Assembly (NCBI RefSeq): GCF_963576615.1
Contig: NC_088714.1
Coordinates: 1,302,001-1,366,000 of the forward strand
Source: Watersipora subatra
Lineage: Eukaryota; Bryozoa; Gymnolaemata; Cheilostomatida; Watersiporidae
DNA length: 64,000 nt
Direction: 5' to 3'
Every line of letters begins with the position of its first letter. Position 1 is the first letter of the stretch. A model generated the notes under the pieces. That model worked only from the letters and a program-made list of their open reading frames with translations, was not told the DNA's origin and made no database searches. Positions 33,801 through 64,000 of the stretch are shown here, one piece after another. A program made the translations under genes and the position numbers.

Positions 33801-36800
33801 CACCTCTACTTGCAAGGAAATCATTGATAAATAATAATTAGTAATTGGGGTTTATGATAAGTTAATAATAGTTTTTAAACCGACATATCCTAAACGACAT
33901 ATCCTAAACGGGTTTGTTCAATCAAAACTCACTATTATATTGCTTACAAATGATTGTGGACGCTGCCAAAACTATCGCGTTGGAAATAGCTTACAATACA
34001 TTTAATTTGAGAAATAGGCAAAAACACTAATTGTGATCACCACATGACAGGCATTTTACCGGATTATGATAAGCTTTTACATTCTAATGTTTTTTGTTGT
34101 TGTTATTGCTACACAATGGCCTGCAAGCGGATAACCTGGAGTCAACAAACATGCCTCAACTTTTAAAATGCAAGTAAAATATCAGTTAGAAAGGGAGGCT
34201 ATGTGTTAATTGGTTCTTTAACAAAAATTGAATTATGAATCGAAGTGATTATCGATGATATTGAAAAATTAGAGTTCAGTTAAATCGATATTTGTGGAGA
34301 AAAGGTTTGGTATAAAAGAGAACTTAATGACTTTTACCAGTCATTTAAATTGAATTCTCTAGGGGGGGGGGGGTTTACCATAATTAGCTCTCATAGCTAG
34401 CTTCATAAACTATCAAACCTTTCACTTCTAGTTGCACTCTAAAACCAAGAATGAATGTTCTTATAACTACAATGTCTGCCAAGCGTTAGTAATGGCCAAA
34501 TGAGACTCAGAATGTCTAATTTATTTCATCTATATTATATCTGAGATTTTATATCAGCTAGTTTCATATAAATTTGCCACAATTACTACATTTGCCACAA
34601 CTACTATTATACCTCTCGTGTATAGGCCTACTCGCTATACTATTATACCTCTTGTGTATAGGCCTACTCGCTATACTATTATACCTCTTGTGTATAGGCC
34701 TACTCGCTATACTATTATACCTCTTGTGTATAGGCCTACTCGCTATACTATTATACCTCTTGTGTATAGGCCTACTCGCTATACTATTATACCTCTTGTG
34801 TATAGGCCTACTCGCTATACTATTATACCTCTTGTGTATAGGCCTACTCGCTATACTATTTAGTAGCCAACTACTATTATACATAAAGAAAACCTACCAT
34901 AATATCGAGGCAGGATGGACTGTCCTCCACCGGATCCATGAAGACGCTACTAGTTGAGTTGAAGATATCATCAAACCCGTATGTTTCATCTGTAAGGGTT
35001 GGACTTTCTCCTAAAGAAATGCCGGCAATAGTGAAAGAGAAAGTACAGTCAAACAAAAGTTTGTAAACTTTATACAAACATTTATACAAGCAACAAATTA
35101 TCTGTACAACACTTATACAAACAATAAATGATCTGTACAAAATTTATATAAACAATATGTATGCATTTCGATGAAGGCTTAAAATCGCCTCACCATATCA
35201 CAAGGTGATACTATTCACATGGTGTGCAAACTGGCACATAGAGCAGGCAATACATCTATAACGAAATATCCTTAGAGCATCTTTCAGTATACAAGAACAT
35301 CAAATCTTTTAAAGCCAAAAGTTATATGCTGTTGATACTTTCAACTCGGCAATATAAAATTCAACAATTTAAAGACTGTCACTTTAGAATATTATTCATC
35401 CTAATGTTATTAGTATCCTTCTTATTGTAAGAGTCGTATGCCCTTGACATTTAATGATATAAGAGAATACACCATTGTAGGTTACAACATATGGTGTGGT
35501 TATATCTATAGCTATTGAGAATGCTAGGTGGCAATCAAAAATGCCCAGTAAAAGCTCTCATAAACCAACTTATAAGCATTTCAAGCACTGGTAGAAGTGA
35601 AGTGGGAACTGAACATGATAGCAGCGCTACTATCATGCGACAATTTAAATGGCTGCTGAGGCTCAATAGTCTCCCTAGTACTCTAGTAATAAAGGTGTAG
35701 GTACAAGAGGTGATATAGATAGTGACAAAGTCTACGCATTTCACAAGTTTATTTTAATCATCAGCGATTTCCTTGAGAGGCTATTTAAATTAAATGTTGA
35801 CTGACTGCGTGAAACAAAACAAAGCATTTATCAACACTAGTAAAGTGATGTGCGAACGGGTTTCTATGTTCTATAATGATTTCATCACATCACAGCAAAG
35901 GTCAAAAGTTGCCAAGTTCATGAAATTTTTCTTTCCACACAATTGCTGAACAGTAACAAGGCCACAACTAGTTCTTGACTTGAAGGGCTGGCCAGGGCTT
36001 TAAATAACCAGAGAGTTAAATAGTTTGGCGGGCTTGTCGATAGAGTGGTAGCACAGTGGTAGCTATGCCAACTGGAAAGGCAACCAAAAGGCTACAATGC
36101 TGTTACAGTGTGCTTTCCTCATGTCCAAAGACTTGCCAAAAACAATTTTTTATATTGATCCAATAATCTTCGTGAAGGCAAATATTACAACCAATACAAT
36201 TATGGGTGCAATGTTGCCGAACTCAATTTTTTACATACACATTGTCAAGAAATAGAATTTTATTGCAGGTCGCTGTGTATCACAATGAACACTACTATTA
36301 CATCACTAGTTTATTAGCGCAAAAACAGCAAAGTTTGCTATTACTTGAATTTTTTTATCAAACTAGTAGAGAAAAACAGAACACGCAGGATCTACCATAT
36401 TAAACTGCACTATGAATATAGAAACAGCCTATGTTTTAATTAATTCTATATGTATACACGAAGAAGGGCATAAAACAGAAACAGTAATGCCCTCTAGGCA
36501 GCATTCAAGCAGAGCGATTGCGATAAGGCCGGAATGACAGAGACCTGTCTAAAATTAGTTCCGAGTTTTCTGACGTATATTTAGATCAAAGATAAAAATG
36601 TGAGAGTTAACGGCGTATAGTTTTTAAAGTCCAAGAGTTACCACCACTGTTTATCTTGCCATTTCATACTAACAACATATTTACTGCGTGTAATTAGACT
36701 TCATGATTAATGAGAAGCGAAGAGTTGTGAACCCTTCTCTGGTCTCTTACACTCAGCTCTATATACTCTATACGCTCAGATGGTTGTTTAGGTTTCAAAA

Positions 36801-39800
36801 CCTTCCACTACCACTCTCCACTCTCAGTAACAAACGAATCCACAAAACTCCACAGTATCTGTTAAAGCGTATATCAACATTCTGAGATGTCACAAAAATT
36901 GAAAGGCTGTTGCTAAAATTGTTGCTGTTCAAAGAATTCTAATGTAAATTATTTCTTTAAAATGGCAAAAAAATTGAAAAATAGTTACGCTGCCGAGAGG
37001 TACGCTGCCGTTGTTTCCCAGCAACAGCATTCAGCGATTAGAGCAATCAGAATGCCATAAAAGGCAATTAACTCCACAAAGTTATTCTGTCCGTTTTGTA
37101 AATTTCAAATCAAAACTGAGACTCTTTCTACCCACCAGTAGCTGCAGTATGTTTAATCGCATCACAGAAGTTGTGCTGCACTTTTTCGGCTTTGACAATG
37201 ACTTGAGGTTGGTCGATCGTACTCTCCTCACTCTGCACACCGGCCAAGATAACACCAGATTGCACTGGCTGACTGCAAGTATAAAGGATACCATCAAAGG
37301 TCTACAAACCGCCATCCTGATAAAAATTTTTATAGTGCTAGCTGAAAATGCTCAGACAGTTATGGCTATTGAGAGAAATTCATTGGTGTTGAGGAGAATG
37401 GGCCTTTTACCTGATAACATGATGCACGCATATCGTGTGCAACGGCTTTCCTGTTTTACAATCCAAAGTGATGGAGGCCTCTGTATAAACATTCATTTCT
37501 CCTCCACCATTTATTAAGAACCTGTATGGATCTGTCATAACGTGCTCCTTGCTAGACACTGTGAGAATAATAATAGAATTCGTAACCATTGCTATTCTCA
37601 GAGACTCAGAACAGCAATGATTATAGCAATGGTTACTAACTGGGATCACGATACGCCCTGGCAATCACAGCAGACACGTGCCAACGCTTCACGTGTTACC
37701 CCATTAACGAACTCAACTCAAGGCACTCCACCCCTTTATCAAATGCTCATTGTATGAAACATCAAGCTTCGTCTATTAAATGGAGGTTGAAATGAGCTAT
37801 CAAAACCAACATAGCGCTAGCCTGAAAACACTCATGTTTTGCAGTAAAGAAACAGAGCAACCCTGCTCAGCTCGGCACAAATGATGAAGGCAGAAGCATA
37901 TGAAAGCATTGAAGACGCGTCTTGAAACACTCCTCCTTCAACGCTCTGTGAAATACAGGAAACTTAACAAATATGAAAATCGCTGTTCCTGTTATTTACA
38001 CTCTGCAACTTTCATTGCAACGTTTACAATAAGCATTCTACAGTTAAGTAAACATTTTTAATAATTTCACCTTTACAACATTTTTTTATTCAGAATTGAT
38101 ATGGAAACTCCTCATGGAAACTTAGTCAATTACAGCAGTTGCATGGACCACTAGTGAGGCACCCTAAATACCAGTTGCATGGACCACTAGAGAGGCACCC
38201 TAAATACCAGTTGCACGGACCACTCGAGAGGCACCCTAAACACGAGGAACCCGCGTGAATGACAGGAGTTGTCCATACATATTAGTAACAAAACTATTCA
38301 TATGGTAAGTTGTAGGTAGGTATGCTTTCAACCTACTTCTCTATGGAATAAAAGGTTAATTAGCCCTGTTATTCTCAATTGTTATACACTACACTGCACT
38401 GCCATGAAGTCTCTCCAATTAAACGTGATTCACATTTTGTGGTACGCTTGACAGTGAAATTTATGTCCAATTGTTGTTGAAGCATGCAACAAATATAATT
38501 TTCTTAGGTGAGTAAGTCTGCGAAAAGTTATTTGTAGTTTTATTCCAGTTGTTGTTAATTCACTGTGCTGAACAGAAATTTGTATGTCCATAAAACACCG
38601 AGTATTCAATAGCATATTAATGTTAGACGTTCTCAAAATGAAAAATATGTATTGCCACTCCATTTTCTACTTCAAACTATCGAAGGTTAAGCCTGCTTCT
38701 TTTACCTGAGGCACTTTGCCATTTATGGTCAAAAACACACACCTAACATACTTGTTCTCAATATCAATTCTATAGTATTATTGCTTCTTATAACAAGTGC
38801 TTCTTATAACAAGTGCTTGCTATAACAAGTGCTTCTTATAACAAGTGCTTGCTATAACAAGTGCCTGCTATAATAAGTGCTTGCTATAACAAGTGCTTGC
38901 TATACCCTACAGGATGAATTTATTCGCGGAGTTATATTTCGCGAAAATTGTCTTTTCATGCGTATTCGCGGATGAATTTATTCGCGGCTGAAAACTGCCA
39001 CTCTCTAGGAAAAGTTAACTCTATTGCGGCTAGTAATAGATATTCCTACGCATGCGCACATCGCGTGTTCCGTTTTATATTTAGCTTACAATTGCGGGGC
39101 GGTAAATTTTTGCTGCGTCCAGAGGTTTTCACGAATATTCATCGCTTTGGAGGCCTTTGATAAGCCAACAACTTGTGGTAAGTAATGATTTTTTTTTACA
39201 TTTACTAAATTAGTTAAATTTTACTTTGGTTCTTCGGTAAAACGCAATACTGATTTTTTTCCATACCTACTGCTTCATTATTTGTTTTAGTGTGAGAGAG
39301 AGATTTTTCATCATACACCGAAGAACAATGATTGCAAGGGTGGTAGATGTCATTCTTAGAAGATCACCAATCATTCAGGGAGGTCTGGAAATTGAGGTTG
39401 AAGTGACCGCAGCTACTTACGAGAAGAATATATCTGTTTTTAAAAAAGGAACGAAGACGCCTTTACGAGCACAAATCTTTGGCCAACCGGCAGAACTTTG
39501 CAATAGTAAGCCACGAGAAGGGTTCTGATGATAACTTCCTTACCAGCCATGTAGTAGCGAGAGAATCGCCTTCAACACATACCCAAGACAGTGACAGAGC
39601 TGCTATTACCAAAATAACTAGTCAGAAAGCACCATTACACGCTAGTATTCACATATCAAGAGTACCAGTTTAATTTCCTTGCTAGACAACCGCCATATGG
39701 ACTAAACTGTTTATATTTACTCCATTCATCTTTTGTAAAATTTTATTCGTATTTGAAACATTTTATTTGTACACTCAAGTTTGTAATAGATTATAATATA

Positions 39801-42800
39801 TCTATACATGAAATAAAATATAGAATTTAATCATGTTTGCTACAGCGATATCAAGAAGTTGTTATCGATGAAGAGGTCTAGGTTGACTCGTTGCCTCTCT
39901 GCCAATATTCCTGCCTTGATGAATATTATTACTACTTGTCTCTAGTTTTCGTAGTCAATCTGCAATAAACACAAAAAAGAAAAAATATTAACGAGTGTTG
40001 AGAAAGTACAAAAACAATAGCTGAAGTATTTGATGAGAGAGATCAGTTTTTAAACAAAAGAATTAACTAATGCAGTTGATTATGGAAAAACGTATCTGCA
40101 CTGCAAATCAAATACATACCATAATGTTCAGAATCATGATCGTCCTTGACTTCGGTATTAGAAATTGATGGAGTTGATTCTAATGTAAAAAAGACTAGGA
40201 GAGCTTTTTTGCTATGCTGAAGCCATGCCGAATAACTTGTAAAAACCTTGAATAATTTTGTAAAGTTTGACGCAATAGCAATAAAGCTCGAAGGCTGGCG
40301 ATGATTTTAAAGAAGTTTTGGAACTCGGCTACGTTTAGTACTTCGGCCTCGCGGCTATTTTCGCGATGACGTCATTCTGCATATCGTGTGACAACCTCGA
40401 ATAATTTTGTAAATAAATGTGATGCATTGCCAATGGTGTTAGCTCAAAGCTCAGGCAATGATTTTAAAAATGTTTTGGAACTCAATTACGTTTAGTATTT
40501 ACATTAAAAACTAGGCTAGCGACTAGTTTTTAAATTTGATGCAGTAGTTATTCTCTCTTGTGATTAAAAATAGAACTAATTATTCACTGAATTTAATAAT
40601 TCGCGGGATTGACTGTTCGCGAAATCGCGAATTTTTATGACCAACGAATATTTTCATCCTGTAGGGTAACAAGTGCTTGCTATAACAAGTGCTTGCTATA
40701 ACAAGTGCTTGCTATAACAAGTGTTTGCTATAACAAGTGCTTGCTATAACAAGTGCTTGCTATAACAAGTGCTTGCTATAACAAGTGCTTGCTATAACAA
40801 GTGCTTCCCCAAGTATTAAAAAAATGAAATATTTAGTTATATGAGAAGTTTTGTGCGAAGTAACTTGTGATACTCTTCTGCGCTACATGCAAATTCATAT
40901 ACTCGACTATGAAAGTAATATCTCGTGCATATCTGACAGTGAAAATACAGAATGTTAATCAAGTTTTCTAAAGAAGAAATCATGAATTTATAGTTAGATG
41001 ATAGAATCTTTAGCGCGTTATCCAATTTTTTTATTGCAACTTGAAAATAATTTTACTCAGGTCTCCAACAGATTGCAATTTCTAACATTTTGTCTGAGTT
41101 TAACAGTGAAATAATTTATGTTGACCACTACATAAGTATCCTAAAAAGAGATACGATTTTCAAAGGTAAGTATGCGGCGAGTTGCCTAAGTGTTTAGTCC
41201 AGCAATATATCAGTTATAGTAAGTAACAGTCTACTTGTAGTAAGTTTTCACTAAGCTTAGATGTGCCGCACTTAAACATGCTGAATAAACTAGTGCCGCA
41301 CTTAAACATGCTGAATAAACTAGTGCCGCACTTAAACATGCTGAATAAACTAGTGCCGCACTTAAACATGCTGAATAAACTAGTGCCGCACTTAAACATG
41401 CTGAATAAACTAGCCCATTTAACCATTTGGTGCACAAAGCCTCAAAACTTGAGTTTTAATTTTTTTTCAACTTTGAAACTGCATTCAGTTCTATTTGAAC
41501 CTTATGTTCAGTTCTATTTGAACCTTATGTTCAGTTCTATTTGAACCTTATGTTCAGTTCTATTTGAACCTTATGTTCAGTTCTATTTGAACCTTATGTT
41601 CAGTTCTATTTGAACCTTATGTTCAGTTCTATTTGAACCTTATGTTCAGTTCTATCTGAACCTTATGTTCAGTTCTATTTGAACCTTATGTTGTGAACAA
41701 ACAATTTTGTGGCATATTTCATTTTGTAAGATGTATCACAGTTTCAATAACTGTACGATATGATTACCGACGACAGTGTTATAAGTTAGAACATTTATCA
41801 AACCTTTACCAAGCTCGCATGTGATTCCTTCAGTACGTGTGCACTAAAGCACTCAGCATGAGTTGAACGAATGCCCATTGTTGTACCATTGCGCGTGAGT
41901 TTTATAACACGCATAGCTAGCAAAAGGCAATGCCTCTCACAAAAATGGCTTTGCATCTGTGAATCTACACACAAAACTATATATGAAATTAGAGAAAAAC
42001 TAGTTCAGCTTACATCAGCAACTAGTCGATCTTTCCTTGAAATGACCTCTAGCTGCTGCCGTGCGCTTGACTGATTACATGGAATTTTTAATTGTTCCAC
42101 CGTGACATCACAAGCAGCTATCCAAGGAAATGTGCCTTTTTGATGAGATTGGACTTATAACTTAATGCACTGAGTCAAAATATTGGTTATATAAATACAC
42201 ACCGTTCTACATAGCAAAAAAGTTCAAGTTACACCATGTTAATTACAGAATCTGCTTCCAACACCAGAAACCAACAAAGTGCATCACTTTTTTTCTCACG
42301 CGGTGAAAATTGCGGAGCAATCCAAACTGTGTTGTCCAGCAATCGATATAAAGAGATTAAATGGCACGTACGTTATGACGACTCCCTAGTAGAACACAGC
42401 TACCATTTACCCTCTAGAAATTTTTAATTGCTTGTTTAAAGGTGAACTTACACAAAATTTAAATAAATTTTATCAGAAAGAATCAGTATTTTTCTACCAT
42501 TTGCTATTGATTTTTTGATGTTTGAGGTGATCTGACTGCCAGGGCAGTTCAAGAATAAAATGAACAAAAATCGCAGTTCAAACGCTCAGATAAAAAAGTG
42601 CAAAATGACGTCACTAGTTGCTATCGGCTATCGCATTCAAGATGACGAATTAAGCAACTCTATTCTGTCCGCCTCTATTCTGTCCGCCTCTGCAACTATA
42701 AACATCATAATCACAGACTCACTTAATCTGAGATCAAGTTTCACCTGAGATCAAGTTTTGTTGATTTTAATCTTGACAGTCAGATCAACTCAAACATCAA

Positions 42801-45800
42801 AAACAATCACAAATGATGGAAAAATACTGATACTTTCTGATAAAATCTACTAAAACTTTGAGAAGTTCATTTTTAATGTAAAGTGATAAATATAAAGGAA
42901 CACAACTCACGTGCTTTAAAACTCGCAACAACAGACTTTATGTCTGCAGGATGTACAAAGTCATAGAAAGATCTTCCTTCTAGATAAGACTTGGAATAGT
43001 GGGTCAGATCTGAGGTTCTGTAAAAGTAGTATCAGACGATGAGTGGACATACACACATATATACAGACATACATATCTGGAACAGTGGGTCAGATCTGAG
43101 GTTCTGTAATAGTAGTATCAGCCGATGAGTGGACATACACACATATATACAGACATACATATCTGGAATAGTGGGTCAGATCTGAGGTTCTGTAATAGGA
43201 GTATCAGCCGATGAGTGGACATACACACATATATACAGACATACATATCTGGAACAGTGGGTCAGATCTGAGGTTCTGTAATAGGAGTATCAGCCGATGA
43301 GTGGACATACACACATATATACAGACATACATATCTGGAACAGTGGGTCAGATCTGAGGTTCTGTAATAGGAGTATCAGCCAATGAGTGGACATACACAC
43401 ATATATACAGACAAACATATCTGGAATAGTGGGTCAGATCTGAGGTTCTGTAATAGTAGTATCAGCCGATGAGTGGACATACACACATATATACAGACAT
43501 ACATATCTGGAACAGTGGGTCAGATCTGAGGTTCTGTAATAGGAGTATCAGCCGATGAGTGGACATACACACATATATACAGACATACATATCTGGAACA
43601 GTGGGTCAGATCTGAGGTTCTGTAATAGGAGTATCAGCCAATGAGTGGACATACACACATATATACAGACAAACATATCTGGAATAGTGGGTCAGATCTG
43701 AGGTTCTGTAATAGTAGTATCAGCCGATGAGTGGACATACACACATATATACAGACATACGTATCTGGAACAGTGGGTCAGATCTGAGGTTCTGTAATAG
43801 GAGTATCAGCCGATGAGTGGACATACACACATATATACAGACATACATATCTGGAACAGTGGGTCAGATCTGAGGTTCTGTAATAGGAGTATCATCCGAT
43901 GAGTGGACATACACACATATATACAGACATACATATCTGGAACAGTGGGTCAGATCTGAGGTTCTGTAATAGGAGTATCAGCCGATGAGTGGACATACAC
44001 ACATATATACAGACATACATATCTGGAACAGTGGGTCAGATCTGAGGTTCTGTAATAGGAGTATCAGCTGGTGAGTGGACATACAGAGAGATCAGAGCCA
44101 TTGGGATTGATAAAAGGAATTACAAACCGAGTTTCATACAGTCAAAAAATCAGCTGGTAAACAAATTGCACAATATTGTTGACATCATACCAAAGAAAAA
44201 GTACATTCACTAACTAGGATATCGTTGAGCACATTTCACATGTTGATTTATCTGGGTGGTGTATAGCTGTTGCTTTATGATGTCAGCCACTTTTAAGATA
44301 ATCTATATTTAAGACTTTAGTAGTAGCCTATATAGTTGCAAACTAAAATTACACTAAGATAATTTTTACTATGGTAAACTGATATAAATGGTCACACTAA
44401 CAACTACAGCATCTGATCTTGAATACAAACTAGATGCCGTAAAATTTTTATTTGAACACCATGGCGCTGTATTTTTCATTCATTTCCCTATAGTGGCGTT
44501 TTATTAGAGGTGACATTCAAATAGAGGGTGGCGCTGTATTTTTTGACCAGCTCATCAGAATTTTAGAAAGATAAATTTAACTCTTCTACGGCGAAGCGAT
44601 GCCAATGCCCGCTACATTTTGCACTCTCCTTCGGGCAGAGCAACATTAATGCCATCAGCTACAGCATGTTTGTTAAACCGTCTTTCATATACGTCAAAGT
44701 ATCAGACCGAGTTCAACAAGAAACTACTTTGATTAAAGCATAGCCAGATACAGTAATTGTTTCAATGGTGTCGCTTTTAACGTTTTAAAGATAAAACCTG
44801 AAGAGTATTCTTTTGTTCATCGGAACGCTTTAAAAATTTCAGGTTAAATCGTAAACCACATTATAAACAAATCTGAAAACAATGGATCGGATTGAGATCT
44901 TAGTGACTTCGAATCAGAGGGTAGTTCTGATGACTGTTACGATTGATCTTCTCAGGTACACTGTCACTAGAACAATCAATCTTCTCAGGTACAGGCACAC
45001 TGTCACTAGAACAATGGCAATCACTACAGCAATAACGAAAGAATTATTTGTGATTTATGTAACCGAGTCGCTATTAGTACCATTTTGGGGACACTTTTCT
45101 ACTGATCACTTTCTATTATCAGTTCGTAAAGATCAAAGAATGTCAAAATGGAGGTCAATTGAAGGTGGCTTTCAATTAAAGGGCGGTGCCGCATTTTTTA
45201 ACTCTTCTTCTAGAGTGGCGTTCTATTAGAGGTGGACTCAAATAAAGGTTGCCTTCAAATAGAGGTTTTACGGTATATTTGAATATTAACATTCTCATTC
45301 AACCTTAGTGAAAACGATTCTCTGAAGAATAGATGCCATAACAGTACTTCCTTCAAAAGGTCAAATTTCTTATTTTCGCAAAAGAATACGTTTTATAGCA
45401 TTACTTTAAAGATAAATAAATAAACATAGAGATTTAATACATTGTGCTATGTTCTTACCTCAGTCTAGTTAAACCTATTATGGGCCTATGTGGCTTACAG
45501 CCTCGAATGCCATTTGAAAACTTTCCATCATGTTTTTTACTTCACAATGTCACCATTTGTGGCTTCATTTATCCACAACTCCTGATAGTATGTAGGACTT
45601 TATATACTTTATATGAGGAATACACAGAACAGCAGCTGTTCATCTCAGCACTCAGCCACTAATTTTAACATCATAAAGGGATGTTAAATGAGTGACACAC
45701 ATGAATAACATGCCGATGAGCTATTCACACAGTGAAAGACGACACTGTAGCGCAATGAGTTTAAACTTGTTCTGTATCACAACAAAGTGGGACCGTCATT

Positions 45801-48800
45801 TTTCGAATAGCCATAAACCATGATTGCAAATAAAAAAACTAACAAACAAATTTCGCTAAAAACTACCTTTTAAATCAGACAAAAATAGCACAGCTCCTTG
45901 TGTTACTTCCATAGCCATCATAAGGCTCATTAAATTCAAGTATCAGATAGAGACCCATAAAACAGAGTGATGTTGATGGCTAATCATGATGTAGCTGTCA
46001 ACACTTGGAATAGACAAGTCCTCTATTGGGTTACATTTCCATGCAATCTTGTGGTTACTTGTATGCTCAACTAGTCATTTGTTGCTTAGCAATTTCACAA
46101 GCTGTCAGGATTAACATCGCGCAAAGGTGGCATTTCCATAAATAGTCGTTTTAAGGCCAAAATAAAGAGTGTGATATTTTGAGTATAAGCAATGAAACAC
46201 TTTGTAACGTTATGACTATTTATACAAATATCCCCTACAATATTACAGATAACGAGCCCATAAAAACGTTAACATTTTCATTTTCAACAGCTACTCAAAA
46301 CCAGAAATGTGTGGTTTGAACAAACTCCATTGGGGTTCAAAAAGATCATATGATACCATGGGCATGACATGAGATCATTTGTTAGAACTACATGTGATGA
46401 ATCTGAGCTCATGCAACTGCTAAAAGACAAAAACTGGAATTACAAAGAAAGTTTGTAGGATGATGACTGATGCCGTTCTCTTTATGACAGTAAGAAATGA
46501 CAATCTGACATGAAGGATGGCCATGCATAGAGGCTATGCGTATGGAGTACATATATAGCGCTTGCTATTCAATTGTGTACCTTTCTCAGTTACAGTAGTT
46601 TTTTCCTTGGGGCAGCCTACATTTACAATGAACAATTGATGTGTCAATAAATGTTGTGGCCTGAGATCTTTATGGATACTTGATTGTTTGTAGGCTACAA
46701 TATCTAGATCAATTGCTTTATTAGATTCATTTGTGGGTACTTCTCATGCGGCTGACATATCATTGAAAGAATCATGTAGAGGAGAGCCCCCTAACTTTAA
46801 AGGTTGACTTGCAACAAAATTCACATTACAGTTATTTGGTATCAAAAGATTCACCAAGTCTTACTCTGTTGTGTTGTAAGTGCCGAATATGTGGAAATGT
46901 GATTACAAGCTCTGAAAAGCTCAAAAACGCAAAGCCGCCGTAGATTGGAATCTCTTTATTTCGATGACGTAGCCACGAAATTTGGTTATCGTCTTGTCAC
47001 GTATGTTCTCACGTGAATTGAAAGGCCAATACAAAGCTCAATATAAAACTTATCGTAGTACTAGTTTATGACAAACACTTCGGGTTTTACCGAAGACCCC
47101 GTATCAAATATAGATGCTCGCTACTTTACAGTTTTATTTCGGCCTGGTCTAATCGGCAAGTCGTAATCTGATCATGTGACTCAATACTTCGCAAACAATT
47201 TCTGCAGCACTTTTCAATTATCACAGGTGACCAACAGGCTCGTCATGATTATCAGACAATGATATGTACTCCTTCAAGCTAAGGCTAAAAAATTAAACGA
47301 ATTTTTACGGTAAGTTATAAGATATCACTGCTAAAAGTGACAGCATTACGATGACGATAAAACAGACGCGTAAGAACAATAGACGTAGTTTTATTGAATG
47401 CGTAAAGTATATTTGTGAAAATATTTCGACAAATAAGGTTGCAAGAAAGTGTAAACAGAAACCATCTCTCACAACTACATCACATTTGAGCCGTTTTGGA
47501 AAGGGAATTCAAACTACGGCGGTCTCGTGTGGCTGCGATTTTCTGTTCGTTTTTGAGCTTTTAAGAGCTTGTAATCACCTTTCCACATATTTTGCACCTA
47601 CAACACAACAGAGTAAGACATGGTAAATCTTTTCATATCAAATAACGGTAATGTGAATTTTGTTGCAAGTCAACCTTTAAGGATACTTCAAAGACTATAT
47701 TCAAGACTAGCCAGTTTTTGATACATTAATATCAAAAACTGTTGTAATCGCCGAAAGGGCATGCAGGATGTCTAGAACTACTCCAGTTTGATTTTCAGTT
47801 CATAGATGACAAGCATGTCAGTAGACAATATTAACAAAGATGCTATTGCATCAAAACAACAAAACAAAACAAATAAAAAGTGATATGGCAGTAAATAGCT
47901 GACTAGCAGCAAGTATAGGCGCTTCCTTGCGGCTAGACTTTTAGTTATGCCAGCTATACATCTCAAACAGCCAATATCACGTGCAAACAAAAGATTGTCG
48001 TTTGTAATACCCTGGCGATTGCAAACATACCGGTAGCCGAGGTCTAATATTGTGGTATTTCAGACAGCTAGGTGAATTCTAGGGAACAGGGTGACATTTT
48101 ATTTTACCATCACTAATGCACTTCGGTATCTTAATGTATGCACACGCACAAGCCTATGGCGCTGAGAAGATAAAGAGATAAATTTAGCGAAAAGAGGTAT
48201 CTGGTAGCCAGGGTAGAGGTCAATAAGCCAATATGACAATATGGATGAATATTAAGAAATAATAACCATAAAGGCTAAAGCTATCAACATTCCATGAGTG
48301 TTTTGATCAGATTCTTTTTAAAACTTATGCTACCCCTGTTAGTGCTTGTAACCCCTGTTAGTACTTGCTAATAACCCCTGTTAGTACTTGCTAATAACCC
48401 CTGTTAGTACTTGCTAATAACCCCTGTTAGTACTTGCTAATAACCCCTGTTAGCGCTTGTAACACCTGTTAGTACTTGCCGATGACCCTTTGTTAATTTG
48501 AGCATGAGACAGATGAGTTGTTGGACTGACATTATCAGTAGAACGACACAAATAAAGTTAACATAAAATATAACCTATAAGTTTACTACGGTGTCTGATA
48601 TGTTCTAAAGATGTTTGGCCAGTCTTAGTTCTGAAGACAATTTCATAATGATGATAATTTGTGTTGCAAAATGCTGCACTTGTCAGCTTCTTGTATTCAG
48701 ACCCAGCCAATAGGGTAACAGCCTATAGGGTGGCTGTTACCCATCCAATAGAGTAATCCTCCCAACAGCATGCATACGAATCTGTGCAGACAATTGGTAT

Positions 48801-51800
48801 TTGCGTTGAAAAAATATTAAATTTTACTGGCTTAATTGAGCTTATGAAAATACGATTCGATTCGCAGCGAAAATGGGCAGAAAGTTTCATTTGTCACAGC
48901 AAATTGCATGCCGGTGGTACTTTTTGTTTTATCTAGCACTTGTGTGTCCGGGTCATTGCGAAGGTGAGCAGTACTCTTGAACAATGGTAATTATTAATCA
49001 CGGCACCAATAACAAATATAATTTTTTGCAAATGATTCTTGCGTAACAGCTCTTGGCCACTTAACTTATCACTTTTTATAACTAGATGCAAGAGCAGAAC
49101 ATGGGCAGTCAATATTATCTACAGAGCAAAGTACACTCAAACGCACTTGTGGCCATTGATGCATGCAAAAAGTCCGGTGAATAGGACCATACCCTTATGC
49201 CATATCAAAGAAATTAATAGAAGAAAAATGTACGGTGAGAATTAGAAAAGCAACATTGAGTATGGCAAAGATATTGGTTGGTGAGATTAAGGTTTGTTGG
49301 CAAGTGTTAGAATTGCGCAATACCACTCATTAGATCTGCCAGATATAAATTAAAGCTTGCGTGCTGTGTCCAAACTCGTCACGACTCAATGGAATCACTC
49401 AATCACTCAAACTATAGTCCTGTCTTATACGTCGCTCGCGCACGCCCGCATGCTGCAGACTGTTCCTTTTCTACTAATTTACGATTCGAATAAGAGGCCA
49501 GTTGTTCTATGAACACTAAAGTAGAAGGTCAGTTGCAAGGTGAAAGATGACACTAAGGGCATCAGAAACTAGATCCATTTGGCATTCATCTATTGGCCAT
49601 ATCCACTTTCTGAGGGCATTGCTAAACGTATGCTATGTCTTATACGTAATGAGGCAGCTGCCGAGGGTGTACAAATAGATGGACATATGCGGAATAGCCC
49701 CACCCCCTGCCCTATTTTGAGAAAGAAGGCCATGACGGCCATGCAAGATTTTGCTAGCAGTCTATGTATTCCTAAACATTATTAACTATTCAAGGCAAGT
49801 CATTTAAATCTTCTTTACAGAAGATGAGCAGTCAATAGTGAAATAAGCACTGGGCACTGGAGCATATGCCTACCATCAAGTGTTTTCATCAAAAGGAAAA
49901 AAAGGCGATGTGTGGTGATTAATCTGACATTTGAAAATAAATTTGAAATAAAAATGGCTTGAGCTTGAAGCTAATGTAATGGAACAACGGGAGACGACCT
50001 TTCTGTCAAACACAGACTAGTTGCTTACTACTCTATCAAAGAACACAAGCATAATTATAGCTTTAGCATTGACGTATTTTATCACTACGTAGAGTCGAGG
50101 CTTCTTATCAGTGGTCTCATTTGACCTTCATACTTGACTTGGTCGACATATGCTGACTTGCCCTCAGCGCTATTCAATGTTGAAAAAAGACACTTACTGC
50201 GAGTCACTGTCTGTCACTCTCATATCAAGGGAGTGTTGGCTGGTGAAAGTCATACTGTCCAAAGGCAGTTTACCCGGAGACGGATAGTCGAGTGGAGTTG
50301 CTGTAAGCACCAAATACTCGGGTATACCGCTGTTTCCCGGCTTCACATCTGCCATCAGTCTTTTACCGCAAAATCTCAGCGTCTGCAAAAACCAAATTGC
50401 AAAACTACTGAGACTAATACCCTGACAGTGTTGAGTATCGAGCGTCGTGAGAGATCGTCATGAGTGCCAATAAAGCATAGAGAATAAGTATATACCCAAT
50501 AATTCTAAAATCCTGGAAGATGAATGCCTGGTGGTGTCGCGCTGGTGGCAAATCTGAATGTCACAGGTTCAAATCTTGTGCAAAGCAATCTTTTTTCCTA
50601 ATCTGCAACTTAATCCATCCTAATCTGCAACTGTGGCTTCAGACAGACATGGCTTCTCTTACAGTAAACATTATCAAAGGTTGAGGATGATCGAAGTCGC
50701 TCCTAGATATCTATGATAACTACAGTAGATGTTCCTTTTAAGCAAATTCCACTTAACGTAAAGAATCTATGTAAAGTGTTGGATTCATATTACGTAAAAT
50801 ATTCTATATAACGCAAAGTGTCATATCGGTACAAGTTCTCAAATTCAATTTGAATAACGAAAGTCTCATTGTTAGCCTTAAAAATATCTTCTGTTCTTTT
50901 GAAGAGAAAACGACATATAGGGGTATCTCTATTATATGTACTGATACCCTGGTAGTCTGGTGTGCCGTGAGATATTGTCATATGTCCCGATAAAGCACAG
51001 AATATAGAGGTATCTCTATTATATGTACTGATACCCTGGTAGTCTGGTGTGCCGTGAGATATTGTCATATGTCCCGATAAAGCACAGAATATAGGGGTAT
51101 CTCTATTATATGTACTGATACCCTGGTAGTCTGGTGTGCCGTGAGATATTGTCATATGTCCCGATAAAGCACAGAATATAGGGGTATCTCTATTATATGT
51201 ACTGATACCCTGGTAGTCTGGTGTGCCGTGAGATATTGTCATGTCTCGATAAAGCACAGAATATAGGGGTATCTCTATTATATGTACTGATACCCTGGTA
51301 GTCTGGTGTGCCGTGAGATATTGTCATATGTCCCGATAAAGCACAGAATATAGGGGTATCTCTATTATATGTACTGATACCCTGGTAGTCTGGTGTGCCG
51401 TGAGATATTGTCATATGTCCCGATAAAGCACAGAAAAATAAGTAGCCGCGCAATTATTTAGAAATACTAAAATACAAAGCTAAATGTCCTGAGTTCGAGT
51501 CTCGTTGAAATCAATCTTTTACTCCAACCTCTAACGCTAGATTTTAAAATGGGAGACAAACAGACACCGCTTTTATTATAAAGATATATCTTTATTTTAC
51601 TCTATTATACATTACAATGTCTAATATGTATATAGTATATATATATAGTATATGTGTAATATTGTATATTAGACATGTACAATATTTTCAGTTTTTTTTG
51701 CACCATAGACTTTCCTGTCTAGAAAAAATTGTGAAAGAAAGTGAAAAAATTGCTTTAAATTGACATTGAAGGTCTGAGCTTGCCTAAACGTAATGTAAAT

Positions 51801-54800: not shown

Positions 54801-57800
54801 TAAATTCAGCATAATCTTTTGAATATAAATACAGAAATCTAGATAAATATCACAACTTCTTGATATTTGTTGCTATGACGTTTTGAAATGTAAACAAAAT
54901 TATGCATTGGTTTTCGTTTCTCAAACTTTACCGCCAGTTTTCTCGGAACTATGTTTTCGCAATAATGGTAAACGTGCATTCAGTTTTTTGACCATAGAAT
55001 CTGCTGTAATTAAGCTAGAATCCAAATTTTTTTGCAAAATAGCTGTGAGAAATTTCTCCTTCTGCCAGTGTAGATAACTCTAAATCTTATAATCTTGACT
55101 TAACCATGGTTTCTGTGATCATGACACATATATAGAATCTTGCTAGAAAGACGACTAACCTGTTGATCAATAGCTAGTTAATGACAATTATACAAATACG
55201 GATTTATATGTAGTAGTAATGCAACTAAGAGTGAACAATGCTAAAAGTATCGCTATTAAAAGCAATCATTTGCATTATTTCTAAAGTTGATTTGTCTAGA
55301 CCTTCAACAGCTTGCAAAAAAAACAGATTTAACGATGAACTGAAGCATAAATGAGCCAAATATGCAACTAACTTTATACGCAGAAGATTTGAAGTTGTGT
55401 CCTCTAGCTCGAGGAGAAAGCTGAGACTTGAACCTGATGCTGAAACTGAGAATTGGGCTGCTGGATTTAAGCACCTGCTCAAGTTCGTCACAGTCCCCAG
55501 GATGCACAAAGGTCTCAAGGCTTCTGCCTATCACGTCATACTGAAAATTCACAGATGGCACTTTTAGTATCAACCTACGAATGCAGCAGACATCCTAAAT
55601 TCCTTCACTAACATTGCAGTCAGATCCAATCACGACCAGTTACTGGTGCCTCTGAGAGTTTGAACATTTCAACCATAACAACTATAAAAAACACGTCCTT
55701 AATTACCACAAGCAATTCAGCTTCAAAGAAACCAAAATATCCAGGTTAATCCTCTGATAATTTGTTAGTTGAAAAACAATTTTAATGGCAATCCATCAAG
55801 ATATTCACTGCTGAAAGATCCGCATTGTAAGTTTACTGGGCACGTCTCCATATCAGACTGTTGACAGATGATTAACCGTTCTACCAACTTCACGTCTAGA
55901 CTGTTTTCCTCTCACCAGATGCTTTCACGGTTTGATCTAACACCTCTCACACTTTTCCCATCTTTCATGTCTTAAACCGCCCTTTCTCTAATCCCGCAGA
56001 TGCAGCACCTCCCGCCCCTATTCCATTGTATACTTCACCTCTTCCTCTCTTATTCCACTATTATTATTACAGCCCTGCTCCATTTATCAACACACAGATC
56101 CTCTACCTCCTGTAGTTTGACTAACACCGTACCCTTGTTACTATTATCATATGATATACTAAATTTCTTAAAACTGTCATTTGTCTTTTTATAGTGAATA
56201 TCCCTTTAATGTAGCATATCAAGTATCTCTTACTTCTTCACCGAACAATATCTTTGGCTATATCGAAAAATAATAGAACAAATCACTAGCCCATACCTCG
56301 CATAGACCAAGAAGCTGTTTGACATTGCTGGTCACATATATCACGTCCCCTGCTGGAGCTATGATAAGTAAAAACCCGTGAAGGAGATCGGCTGCCTCTC
56401 CAGCAGCGAGCTCAGAATTCCCATCGCTGTCGCTTGATGAGAGACAAACATCTGCAAAGCATGCAAAAATGATGAAATTGAGATAGCTACAATACAGTGC
56501 TTTCCATGGTGATAGGTTGGAAAAACAAAGCATCATAGTGACAAAAATATGAATAGTTAACCCTTTCGCGGGCAGAGCGACGTTTTTTTCGCTTCCCGAT
56601 ACGGCTGCTAATGGGCAGTGCGACGTTTTTGTCGTTTCGGTAACGTATTTTATTATTGCAGTTTCTGGTTAGCTAAATGCCGTTTTTTGTTTACTTTTTT
56701 TACCAATAGCAAGCTACGATATAGTAGTTTCGGTTAGCCTCAAAAATTGACTTTAAGGTTGAAAAAAAATGATCGTTTTTAGCAGTGATGAATAAATAAA
56801 CTTTCGAAAAAATTAGAAAATTGTTCTAAATAATTTATCAACTTTTATTTTTCTTGGTTCGGTTTTAGCTTTTATTTACCAAATTTTTTGAGAGTTTGAA
56901 TTTAGTTTACCGTCATGGCGACTTCTAAAAGAACCTCCCGAGATTATTCTAATAAAGCAAGTACTAGTACCGAAATTACTAAGAGATTCAGAGCCGACAG
57001 TGACTTTTTAGATTTAGTAGCAAGAGATGACAGTGAATCAGGTTCGGATTATGATTGGAATGACTTTACATCTGGAGGTGACAGTGATGAAGAGGCTGGT
57101 AGCAGCAATGATGAGGATGTGAGTAGGAGTGATGCCAGTGCCTTGAAGAATATAACCAACATAAACAGAGATGAATCTCCTACAATTCAGCAGTTTATAG
57201 CAGTGACAGGCCCAGTATTTACTCCAGTAGATGCTCAACCAGTAGAGTATTTTGAAAAGTTTTTTGAGCCTGTCAATCCAGGAAGTACATCTTTGTGGGA
57301 GCTCTTTGTTACACGAATAAGTACATGGTGCAAAGATTGTGATGTGGGCCTTTGTAAAGGAGAATGCTTTCGAAAATATCATTCGTAAATAGACAATCAT
57401 TATGAAAAGCATATATTTTATGTTATACATTTTTATTCGTTTATAATATATATATATGCCTATGGACAAATACATGTATACATATGCACCTTTAAACATA
57501 GATATATGCACATAATAACACACAGAAAAGTGTATGAACCTTTTAAAAAAAGTTGATTTTTTGGAAAATTAATTCGCCCATGGGGGTCTGATTTAGTTTT
57601 GAAAATTCGCCCGCGAAAGGGTTAACCAGACATTCCCAAGTTTTCAGTTCTGGCATCAGCATATCTGATGAGATTGATTACGTGGTGCCTCACTTTCTCC
57701 GCATTAGTGCATCACGAATTATCACCTCACGGATGCAAAGCTGGCAAAGAAAACCTTCACTAAATATTTAGGGGTATTGAATTTTGTCACAAGAAATAAA

Positions 57801-60959: not shown

Positions 60960-61312
60960 AGCCGAGTGTACAAATCCAGCGACGTACACCGACTTGCAAG
61001 TGATTTACCCAATCGTAGAGACATTGAACAACCTATTTTATAAATTTGTAAGCAAGTAATACGTTAGCAGGTTAGCAGGTTAAAGTTAATAATAAATATA
61101 TTTACGTACAAAATTATATTAGGACTATTTAGTAAGTTTTACAGTTTTGCAACATAGTCGAGCGTAACATTTATAAAAGTTAGAAGCGATGCCATTGATA
61201 CACGTTGAACGCTAAAAACTGGGCAATAACATGTGATGTTCACGTGACCGATCGTTTGACATTTTTACTTGGCCTTACTTCTCTTTTGACTGTGGCTACT
61301 ATAAGTCCGAAT
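60960..61312 (+). promoter_or_regulatory. Shared upstream region of HIF and cathepsin B; TATA box and CLEAR-like site
   Basis: TATAAAA at 61172-61178 lies about 135 bp before the cathepsin B ATG. TTCACGTGAC at 61239-61248 matches 9 of 10 bases of the CLEAR motif (GTCACGTGAC) bound by TFEB/MITF factors at lysosomal genes; ACGTG is also a hypoxia-response core. Two minimal upstream frames overlap it: ATGTGA at 61231 and ATG TTC ACG TGA at 61236. No TATA box was seen on the HIF side. Confidence 0.45.
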
Positions 61313-63760
61313 ATGAGATCTTTATTGGCGATAATATTTCTTTTGGGAGTGAGTAGTGCTTTTAAGTATTATCCAAATCACCAGCCATTATCTGCCGAGC
61401 TTGAATATTACATCAATCATGAAATCAAAACGACTTGGACCGCAGGAAAAAACTTTCAAGCTCATGGAATGACCACATCTGGATTGAAACGTATGTGTGG
61501 TGTTATCGAAGAACCCAACGGTTTCAAGCTCCCATATAAAGACTTTGAGGAAGTAAACGAAGGAGATTTACCGGAAGAGTTCGACTCTCGTACTCAGTGG
61601 CCCAATTGTTCAAGTATTACGTAAGTATTGTTACACGTAAGTTGTATTCTCGCTCAAAGGTTTGAAACAGTCAAAACAAACCGTTTGCTTATATTACCAT
61701 TTTTGTAATTTTGATTTATCAAGCAAGGAAAACAACAATCATCTGTTTAGACGCACAAATATCGATACAGTGTCCACTCTATTAAATTTTACATGAAATT
61801 GTGGGCATTTCTTTGCAGAACTATCCGAGATCAGGGTAATTGTGGATCTTGCTGGGCATTTGGGGCTGTAGAAGCAATATCGGACAGAATTTGCATTCAT
61901 AGCAATGGTATGAACCAGCCCAGCATTTCTGCTGAAAATCTGCTAACCTGCTGTTGGACTTGCGGAATGGGCTGCAACGGTAAGCAAACTTAATTGTTTT
62001 CATTATTCATATTATTATTAATTATTAGTATCATTCAAATAATATGAATATGAAAACAGCGATATGCATTACTGGGCAGCGAGTCGATGATTCTGTGATG
62101 TGTCCTTTTCGGTGTAAAGCCACTTACTAAGTTGGTGTTTTTTATGGTGAGATTGTTGTTCCTGTTGTTCAGGTGGTTATCCACAGTCTGCTTGGAGCTG
62201 GTGGAAAAGAGATGGCCTGGTTACTGGAGGAGCTTATGGCACTAACAAGGTTTGATGACATGAAATATTGCTTAATGAGTCGAATGAACTGTCACATTAC
62301 AAGTAAAAGTTGTAAACAAACAAAAATGCTTGGCCTGGTCAGACTTTGTTTTGGCCAATGACTACAACAGACCATAGAGCTATCTGCTCATGGAGTTGCA
62401 TTATGTTTGCTATATCAAAATTATGCTAAGCATTGTAAAAATTCTAAAACATATAAACAATTATCAATACTGTCGCAATTTTTTTTATTCAATTGTCTAC
62501 CAACATTCAAGTAATTATGAAACCAGTTTAAAGGCAGAACATCATCAGTAAAAGAGTGAATTTTCCAGATAAATATTCATGCAATTTGTATATTTCTATA
62601 CAAATATAGGCTATCCGAAAGTCTCGGTCATCAAGTTTTATTGATGTTATTAGTTATATTAGTTAATACTATACATGCATGTGTCTATTCTGCCTTTAAA
62701 ATCATCCATCTATAGAACGTAAATGTAAGTACTGGTTGCGGACAACGATTACCAATTTGAAAAGCAATCAGTTTAATGACCTACACAAATGTTGTGGTAA
62801 TGTTATTATACATGGTGTCCAGATGAGCTGCAAGATGAGACAACCAAAAGAAACCCTGTACATTTGTTGAATGTGAACATAACTTCTCAAACAGCTCATA
62901 ATTTGTGCTTGGAGTTTGAGTGGGGTCCAACCAGACTGTTCATTCTTTATTGTTAATGGGCTCGGACCACACTAAATGTTGCATACCTCCTGTTTCACAT
63001 TGTTTTATTTATTCTGGCTGCTGACTGGACTCTGCAAGAAGTTGAACATTCCTTGGTTTTTTTGGTATTTTAATGGAGCACCATGAATAGAATCGTCGTA
63101 TTGGCCTATAGTTCTACACTTTCACATGAGAGATAAAACATTGAAAGTTGGTTATAAACAAGGTGATTGTCACCTCTTATCCGGCGTATTCTCTTATCAT
63201 GTGGTGTAGGCGCGTCGAGGCCAGGTGATGCTTATCTTCCCTTTCTGTCTAGGCAAGCCATGGTCAAAATTTTACATAGCGTCGCATGACCACAGCTTCG
63301 GCTCAAAGGTCCTTTGATAACAGACAAGCCATTATTTGGGCCTCTGCTGCCTACAAAGGTGATCCGGTTATTTTGTAGTTTGTTACCGGCTGTACTCACC
63401 TTTGTCCTTTGATAGTGAAGGTGTACCTAGTTTTCATGATGAATATCATACACTTTTGCACATACCAGCAACAGTATCACATGACTTTCTCGGATAGCGA
63501 TGTCTCACTCAATTGTTTTCAACTCTACTCGTCATATCGTTAATTTTAATTTTTGTTGACCTTCTGATCTATAATTCATACTAGCAGGCGCTGTGGCCAC
63601 TGATTCATGTTTGTTCTTGATTCACTTGAAGGGCTGCCAGCCATATGCCATCAAACCTTGTGAGCATCATGTGAACGGAACAAGGCAGCCATGCAGCGGG
63701 GATGAGCATACTCCTAAATGCACAAAAGAGTGTGAATCATCTTATTCCAAGTCCTATAAG
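61313..63760 (+). CDS. CTSB: Cathepsin B (papain-family lysosomal cysteine protease), 5' part
   Basis: Exons 61313-61620, 61819-61979, 62173-62249 and 63632-63760, 225 codons, phases consistent; the gene runs off the right edge. Residues 1-17 are a signal peptide ([17 protein letters not shown]). The propeptide holds TTWTAGKNF and the GLKRMCG block typical of cathepsin B. The mature enzyme should start near [14 protein letters not shown] (about 86). [20 protein letters not shown] carries the oxyanion Gln108 and nucleophile Cys114. The occluding loop [13 protein letters not shown] keeps the His-His pair that gives dipeptidyl-carboxypeptidase activity. Catalytic His and Asn lie beyond the window. 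The upstream in-frame extension to 61205 has no ATG, so 61313 is chosen. Position and length match human CTSB closely. Confidence 0.97.
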
Positions 63761-64000
63761 GTTAGTGTTCATTCGAGTTTCGCTATTGAGGATAAGGAGG
63801 TGTGCGTATTACCCCTGATCAAAATGCTTACCGCTGCAAGGTTTCTTGACCTTGACCTTCATACAGTGGACAAGACCTAAGACGAGCTAAGATTATTAAC
63901 ATCAGCTATCATTTCTAGTCATGCCGCTGTATTCCGCTTTCAGATGTGTGCTCGATGAATCACTGTTGTTGTTAGTTTTGAACAATACATGTTGTTCAGA

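Follow-up and report, generated by a model that had tools for sequence, protein, structure and literature searches.

What follows for a gene when a minisatellite multiplies one of its splice sites? The window analysed here, a 64-kb stretch of DNA, contains an 86-bp minisatellite (42992..44085, minus strand; located by TRF and by the register of its acceptors) that spans the intron–exon boundary of a PAS-B exon of a HIF-alpha gene. Among the boundary-spanning repeats called mirages it is a clear-cut case, set in an important regulatory gene: 12 near-identical acceptors precede the real one. Such an array would suit experiments on how the spliceosome chooses among near-equal acceptors, and it bears on whether mirages seed new introns, new exons or length-dependent differences in expression. 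If splicing across it is normal, the choice must be made by something besides the acceptor's own sequence; if the host is not a lancelet, the case would extend mirages to another animal group.

The array and the exon boundary it spans

TRF assigned the array a period of 86, 12.7 copies, 97% matches and 0% indels (score 2062). When the register is anchored on the acceptor, 13 copies follow one another on the minus strand at a spacing of exactly 86 nt, from 44049 down to 43017. The 13th acceptor, at 43017, is the real one of the PAS-B exon and the remaining 12 are decoys, whose first exon-copy bases lie at 44049 − 86k for k = 0..11 (43103..44049, minus strand). A preliminary description of this locus had claimed that each unit copies the acceptor together with about 26 exon bases, setting about 12 decoys ahead of the true site, and the exact 86-nt spacing of 12 decoys confirms that claim. 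The array overlaps the exon (43017-42911) by 26 nt. The copied exon part comprises positions +1 to +26, among which +21 is the sole variable position, and the units leave the exon sequence at +27.

The acceptor is copied, as that description had it, but not letter for letter. All 12 decoys read TATTACAG|AACCTCAGATCTGACCCACT, whereas the true acceptor is TTTTACAG, followed by the same 20 exon bases as in the decoys. All 13 copies share the hexamer TTACAG (12 of 12 decoys have it) and the initial 20 bases of the exon without a difference. Upstream of the decoy acceptors, branch-point-like CTGAT and CTCAT motifs each occur in 11 of the 12; at 43963 and 43017, where the spacing was verified, they lie 15 and 23 nt away. 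The units also contain GT donors, but weak ones. A GTATGT 31 nt on had been ascribed to every unit; it stands at +31 in 10 of the 12 decoy units, and the copies at 43705 and 43447 carry GTTTGT instead. A second GTATGT, at +51, is found in 12 of 12.

Three minus-strand exons join in frame around the boundary: an upstream PAS-B exon of 185 nt (50382-50198), which ends in phase 2 at the donor GCA|GTAAGT; the PAS-B exon of 107 nt (43017-42911), with acceptor CTTTTACAG and donor CAC|GTGAGT at 42910, called from HIF1A/EPAS1 alignment, frame and donor score; and a downstream PAS-B exon of 148 nt (37558-37411). The 5′ end of the upstream exon, 50382, lies outside the alignment and was set by acceptor score together with the call in the preliminary description. 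The array sits at the end of the 7180-nt intron (43018..50197, minus strand) that separates the first two exons. The joined product matches HIF1A (4zpr_B) with an E value of 1.3e-21, gap-free over the 43017 junction, and the three displayed alignments (HIF1A chains 4zpr_B and 9ofu_A, EPAS1 chain 9of0_A) are all without a gap there. HIF3A is also among the 33 sequences matched by the joined product. A piece joined from the bHLH and PAS-A frames matches Pfam bHLH_HIF1A over the bHLH part (1.8e-15). We identify the gene as HIF-alpha and 43017 as its true acceptor, and the identity first proposed for the exon, a HIF PAS-B exon, is borne out. An APYIPMED peptide at ~32549 resembles the prolyl-hydroxylation degron. 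An 86-nt piece of the exon has one match in the genome.

Splice signals within the array

All acceptor and donor scores reported here rest on matrices of a metazoan consensus, untrained on this species. At 2.74, the 97th percentile among AGs in the window, the true acceptor has the best score of the 13. The decoys score 0.55 to 2.38 (89th to 96th percentile), with seven of the 12 at 2.38. Five other HIF acceptors taken as real score 0.95 to 4.06, so that by these matrices the decoys fall within the score range of real acceptors; a sixth candidate, at 50348, was dropped (score −4.93). Of the 378 AGs scored in the intron, the true one included, 11 that lie outside the array equal or exceed the true acceptor. 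Lowering the bar to the score of the seven best decoys admits 15 other intron AGs (one inside the array), and lowering it to the score that all 12 decoys reach admits 57 (13 inside the array). Judged by AG score, the intron appears already crowded with decoys.

Donors show a wider spread. The exon donor at 42910 scores 4.92 (99.4th percentile), and the four real HIF donors range from 2.1 to 4.9 (97th to 99.4th percentile of GTs in the window). Unit donors score about −1.0 at +31, −0.27 at +47 and −2.47 at +51, and those above −4 fall between the 78th and 91st percentiles of window GTs. According to these matrices, the units thus display the decoy-exon trait of a usable acceptor combined with a weak donor.

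The true acceptor is barely better than its copies, and therefore something else must help it. The simplest help would come from its being the acceptor nearest to the good donor at 42910. The nearest decoys could share that donor, however: used with it, the decoy at 43103 (score 0.55) would give a 193-nt exon and that at 43189 (2.38) a 279-nt exon. A good donor alone therefore fails to single out the true acceptor. Masking of the decoys by RNA structure was considered and finds no support: shuffled sequence folds as well as one unit does (z 0.59), and the predicted accessibility of TTACAG is low everywhere, at 0.003–0.162 in the 12 decoys and 0.12 at the true site, with a regional median of 0.042.

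We then derived the reading frames that use of the decoys would produce. Read-through from a decoy acceptor into the exon leads to a premature stop in 12 of 12 cases. The preliminary description had suggested frame-shifting micro-exons; one of 31 nt would indeed break the frame, and one to six of them gave a premature stop in each case tried. The same outcome is predicted for one to three micro-exons of 47 nt and for skipping of the 107-nt PAS-B exon. A 51-nt form, missing from the preliminary description, is delimited by the donor TGT|GTATGT, the weakest of the three unit donors. It leaves the frame open for one to four copies and would insert 17 residues per copy, TSDLTHCSRYVCLYICV-like, into PAS-B. 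RNAs bearing premature stops would presumably be removed by decay.

Origin of the array and its described relatives

Each unit runs from TGTATGTCCACTCA, the point at which the 5′ edge of the array meets other intron sequence, via the acceptor to exon position +26, and is completed by ~24 nt of TG/TA-rich filler. The 11 interior copies (copies 2-12) differ from their own consensus at 0-3 positions; for the two edge copies the numbers are 19 and 5. In copies 5-6 and 8-9, variants at −53, −21, −10 and +21 come back every three units, a pattern suggesting that a three-unit block (copies 5-7 / 8-10) reflects one recent multi-unit duplication. Because such a block appears to have been duplicated inside the array, variation of array length between individuals is plausible.

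A series of events probably produced this arrangement. A segment of ~62 bp, made up of the intron end (TGTATGTCC...TTACAG) and the first 26 nt of the PAS-B exon, would have been duplicated in tandem, with the ~24 nt of filler arising at the duplication joint. Unequal exchange or slippage would then have multiplied the resulting 86-bp unit until 12 copies preceded the exon, and the interior copies would have been homogenised. We infer both this mechanism and the age of the expansion. A dispersed repeat or introner was considered as the source of the unit and set aside: at least 13 matches to the unit were found in the 784-Mb genome, all in the array and with no second genomic place among them, these counts being lower bounds and the absence of a match no proof of rarity.

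Variable columns among copies 2-12 number 0 of 6 in the acceptor hexamer, 1 of 27 in the exon copy, 2 of 24 in the filler and 3 of 29 in the other intron sequence. This variation gives no sign of selection keeping or purging the decoy acceptors in those copies, with numbers too small to decide. Two private changes of the true copy, −19 G to T and −7 A to T, add pyrimidines, which may be a faint hint of selection. Read on the minus strand, the filler supplies 12 copies of UGUAUAUA across the array, a sequence that fits the Pumilio motif. Beside it lies a UG-rich run such as CELF or TDP-43 bind.

Tandem repeats across intron–exon boundaries have been described in amphioxus as mirages, at Adh3 and at the globin genes BflGb6 and BflGb9, with homogenised interior units, length instability and, at Adh3, somatic instability; RT-PCR is reported to suggest undisturbed splicing, and the repeats were proposed to create introns (PMC3087553). 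Another report presents PGBD5 as a further amphioxus mirage, cites troponin C and likewise states that splicing is not disturbed (PMC3902484). The HIF array has repeats across the exon–intron boundary, splice signals inside the units, and a uniform interior with divergent edges. It shares with the amphioxus mirages, as described, a unit of minisatellite size and edges left out of homogenisation; in BflGb6 the unit also combines intron end and exon start. The array differs from the reported amphioxus cases in its HIF-alpha gene and its perfectly regular 86-bp period, and its 12 decoys compare with 6 and 3 units in the two BflGb6 haplotypes reported. By analogy, then, the HIF array belongs to a kind already described, the mirages. 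A literature search over titles and abstract openings returned no mirage in a HIF gene and none by that name outside amphioxus, the HIF-specific part comprising 15 of 429 papers.

Other systems share parts of this arrangement. In human ABCA7, the length of an intron-18 VNTR of 25-bp units is reported to correlate with exon 19 skipping, and a cryptic donor allows retention of one unit with a shift of frame, an event unchanged by VNTR size (PMC5954066). There, as here, a VNTR lies beside an exon and a cryptic splice signal lies within the unit, but the ABCA7 report concerns a cryptic donor and measured skipping, whereas the HIF array would act on the acceptor side. Decoy exons of OGT, SF3B1 and ARGLU1 are described as having weak 5′ sites, being bound but rarely spliced, and promoting intron retention; mutating the weak decoy 5′ sites of OGT led to constitutive splicing (PMC12017769). 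The HIF units resemble these decoys, as reported, in combining acceptors, weak donors and premature stops within a long intron. Unlike the HIF array, however, those decoys are not described as tandem copies of the downstream exon, and those of OGT were tested experimentally. Genes in human segmental duplications are reported to carry variable internal tandem repeats at exon–intron boundaries, with novel introns in some genes (PMC2812944). Minisatellite expansion at such a boundary is common to both, but the human cases are described as recent primate paralogues with transcript support, whereas the HIF exon has one place in the genome. The minisatellite CeRep25B of C. elegans has been linked to regions of alternative splicing (PMC4039745). 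Its association is likewise with splicing regulation, but the link runs through short regulatory motifs that are enriched in the vicinity of alternative exons, and the abstract of that report makes no mention of boundary copying.

Taken together, the array is a minisatellite mirage of the splice boundary, probably young and length-variable, and most likely neutral for the greater part and of little effect. Use of the true acceptor would be kept by its score, the best of the 13, and by its being nearest to the strong donor at 42910, and occasional use of a decoy would yield mostly premature-stop transcripts that are then removed. We infer this near-neutrality, and with it the reason why the true acceptor should win. 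Other observations count against it: the decoy acceptors are undegraded (seven of the 12 at 2.38, against 2.74 for the true site); the nearest of them could pair with the strong 42910 donor into exons of ordinary size; and the ABCA7 VNTR, also intronic and next to a splice site, is reported to alter splicing with its length. An active role could take the form of a brake, in which U2AF and U2 occupy the 12 good acceptors and pair unproductively with the weak donors, delaying removal of the 7.2-kb intron so that nuclear detention scales with copy number. The layout does resemble that of described decoy exons, combining good 3′ sites with weak 5′ sites in a long intron and giving premature stops on inclusion, and OGT decoys are reported to be bound by U2AF at their 3′ sites, with decoys found in longer retained introns (PMC12017769). 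Yet the 11 other AGs of the intron that equal or exceed the true site, the reportedly normal splicing of amphioxus mirages and the lack of a selection signal on the array (on small numbers) make such a brake unlikely. The broader proposal of the preliminary description, that the array could tune HIF splicing, is unsupported on similar grounds: the unit donors are weak, rival AGs lie elsewhere in the intron and published relatives are reported to be spliced normally. We regard as a long shot the elaboration in which a hypermutable array of 12 decoys forms a heritable, perhaps somatically variable, rheostat, more units recruiting more U2AF and U2, prolonging detention and lowering full-length HIF.

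The units might otherwise serve as micro-exons or alternative acceptors, giving mostly poison isoforms together with an in-frame 51-nt form in PAS-B. The premature stops predicted in nearly all forms, the open frame of one to four 51-nt exons and the reach of the strong 42910 donor to the nearest decoys would fit such use. Against this, the unit donors are poor (−0.27 to −2.47, versus 2.1 to 4.9 for the four real HIF donors), two of the 12 units have no GTATGT at +31, chained 51-nt exons would require introns of 35 nt, and a 51-nt insertion would fall inside a folded domain; we think this use quite improbable. Finally, the copy number could be wholly or partly a product of assembly, as near-identical units make an array liable to collapse or over-expansion and at least four units exactly match the query unit. 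The variants, however, follow a consistent three-unit pattern along the array and the contig is 66 Mb long, and we judge an assembly product to be very improbable indeed.

Repeats and other features of the surrounding sequence

Minisatellites abound in this genome. Arrays at least 100 bp long make up 10.4% of the window (15 arrays in 64 kb) and 10.5% of a sample from the same chromosome (31 arrays in 200 kb, taken as 10-kb stretches at 20 evenly spaced points). Stretch L017 of that sample is all satellite; over the remaining 19 array cover is 5.8%, by which measure the window is rather dense. Circular shifts were used to examine whether arrays are enriched at exon edges, and such enrichment is unsupported, with 1 of 12 edges observed in an array against 1.26 expected (P(≥1) = 0.59). 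Of 14 edges, the 12 used leave out the 3′ ends of the PAS-A exons, whose positions were unplaced, and the test excludes unmodelled HIF exons and the cathepsin exons; the edges of a candidate HIF exon were entered as 35012/34899 and should read ~35010/34898, with the count unaffected. Arrays are common here, and therefore one that touches an exon edge is unremarkable. The copying of the exon start is far beyond chance; the fall of an exon edge within some array is not.

Outside the window, a genome search for COX1 (PF00115) gave no match, and the last contig, a supposed mitochondrial one of 17,566 bases, showed no tRNA and no recognisable mitochondrial gene within its first 10,000 bases. Several further features lie in the window. 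A 160-codon open frame on the plus strand (56906-57385) has a weak match to zf-Tnp_2 (21.4 bits, cut-off 24) and is perhaps a remnant of a piggyBac-type transposon, in a HIF intron and on the opposite strand. Beyond the HIF bHLH exon, also opposite to the HIF strand, the start of a cathepsin B-like gene (~61300-64000, plus strand) is indicated by a Propeptide_C1 match. Two separate arrays within one HIF intron (38789-38904 and 40667-40806) have a common 16-bp consensus unit, in rotated form (TAACAAGTGCTTGCTA). A further array, of 36 bp × 7.2 (34602-34860, minus strand), starts ~38 nt past the end of the candidate HIF exon (~35010-34898, minus strand; donor ATG|GTAGGT). It has no exon sequence inside, and its repeated GAG|GTATAA may form a row of cryptic donors.
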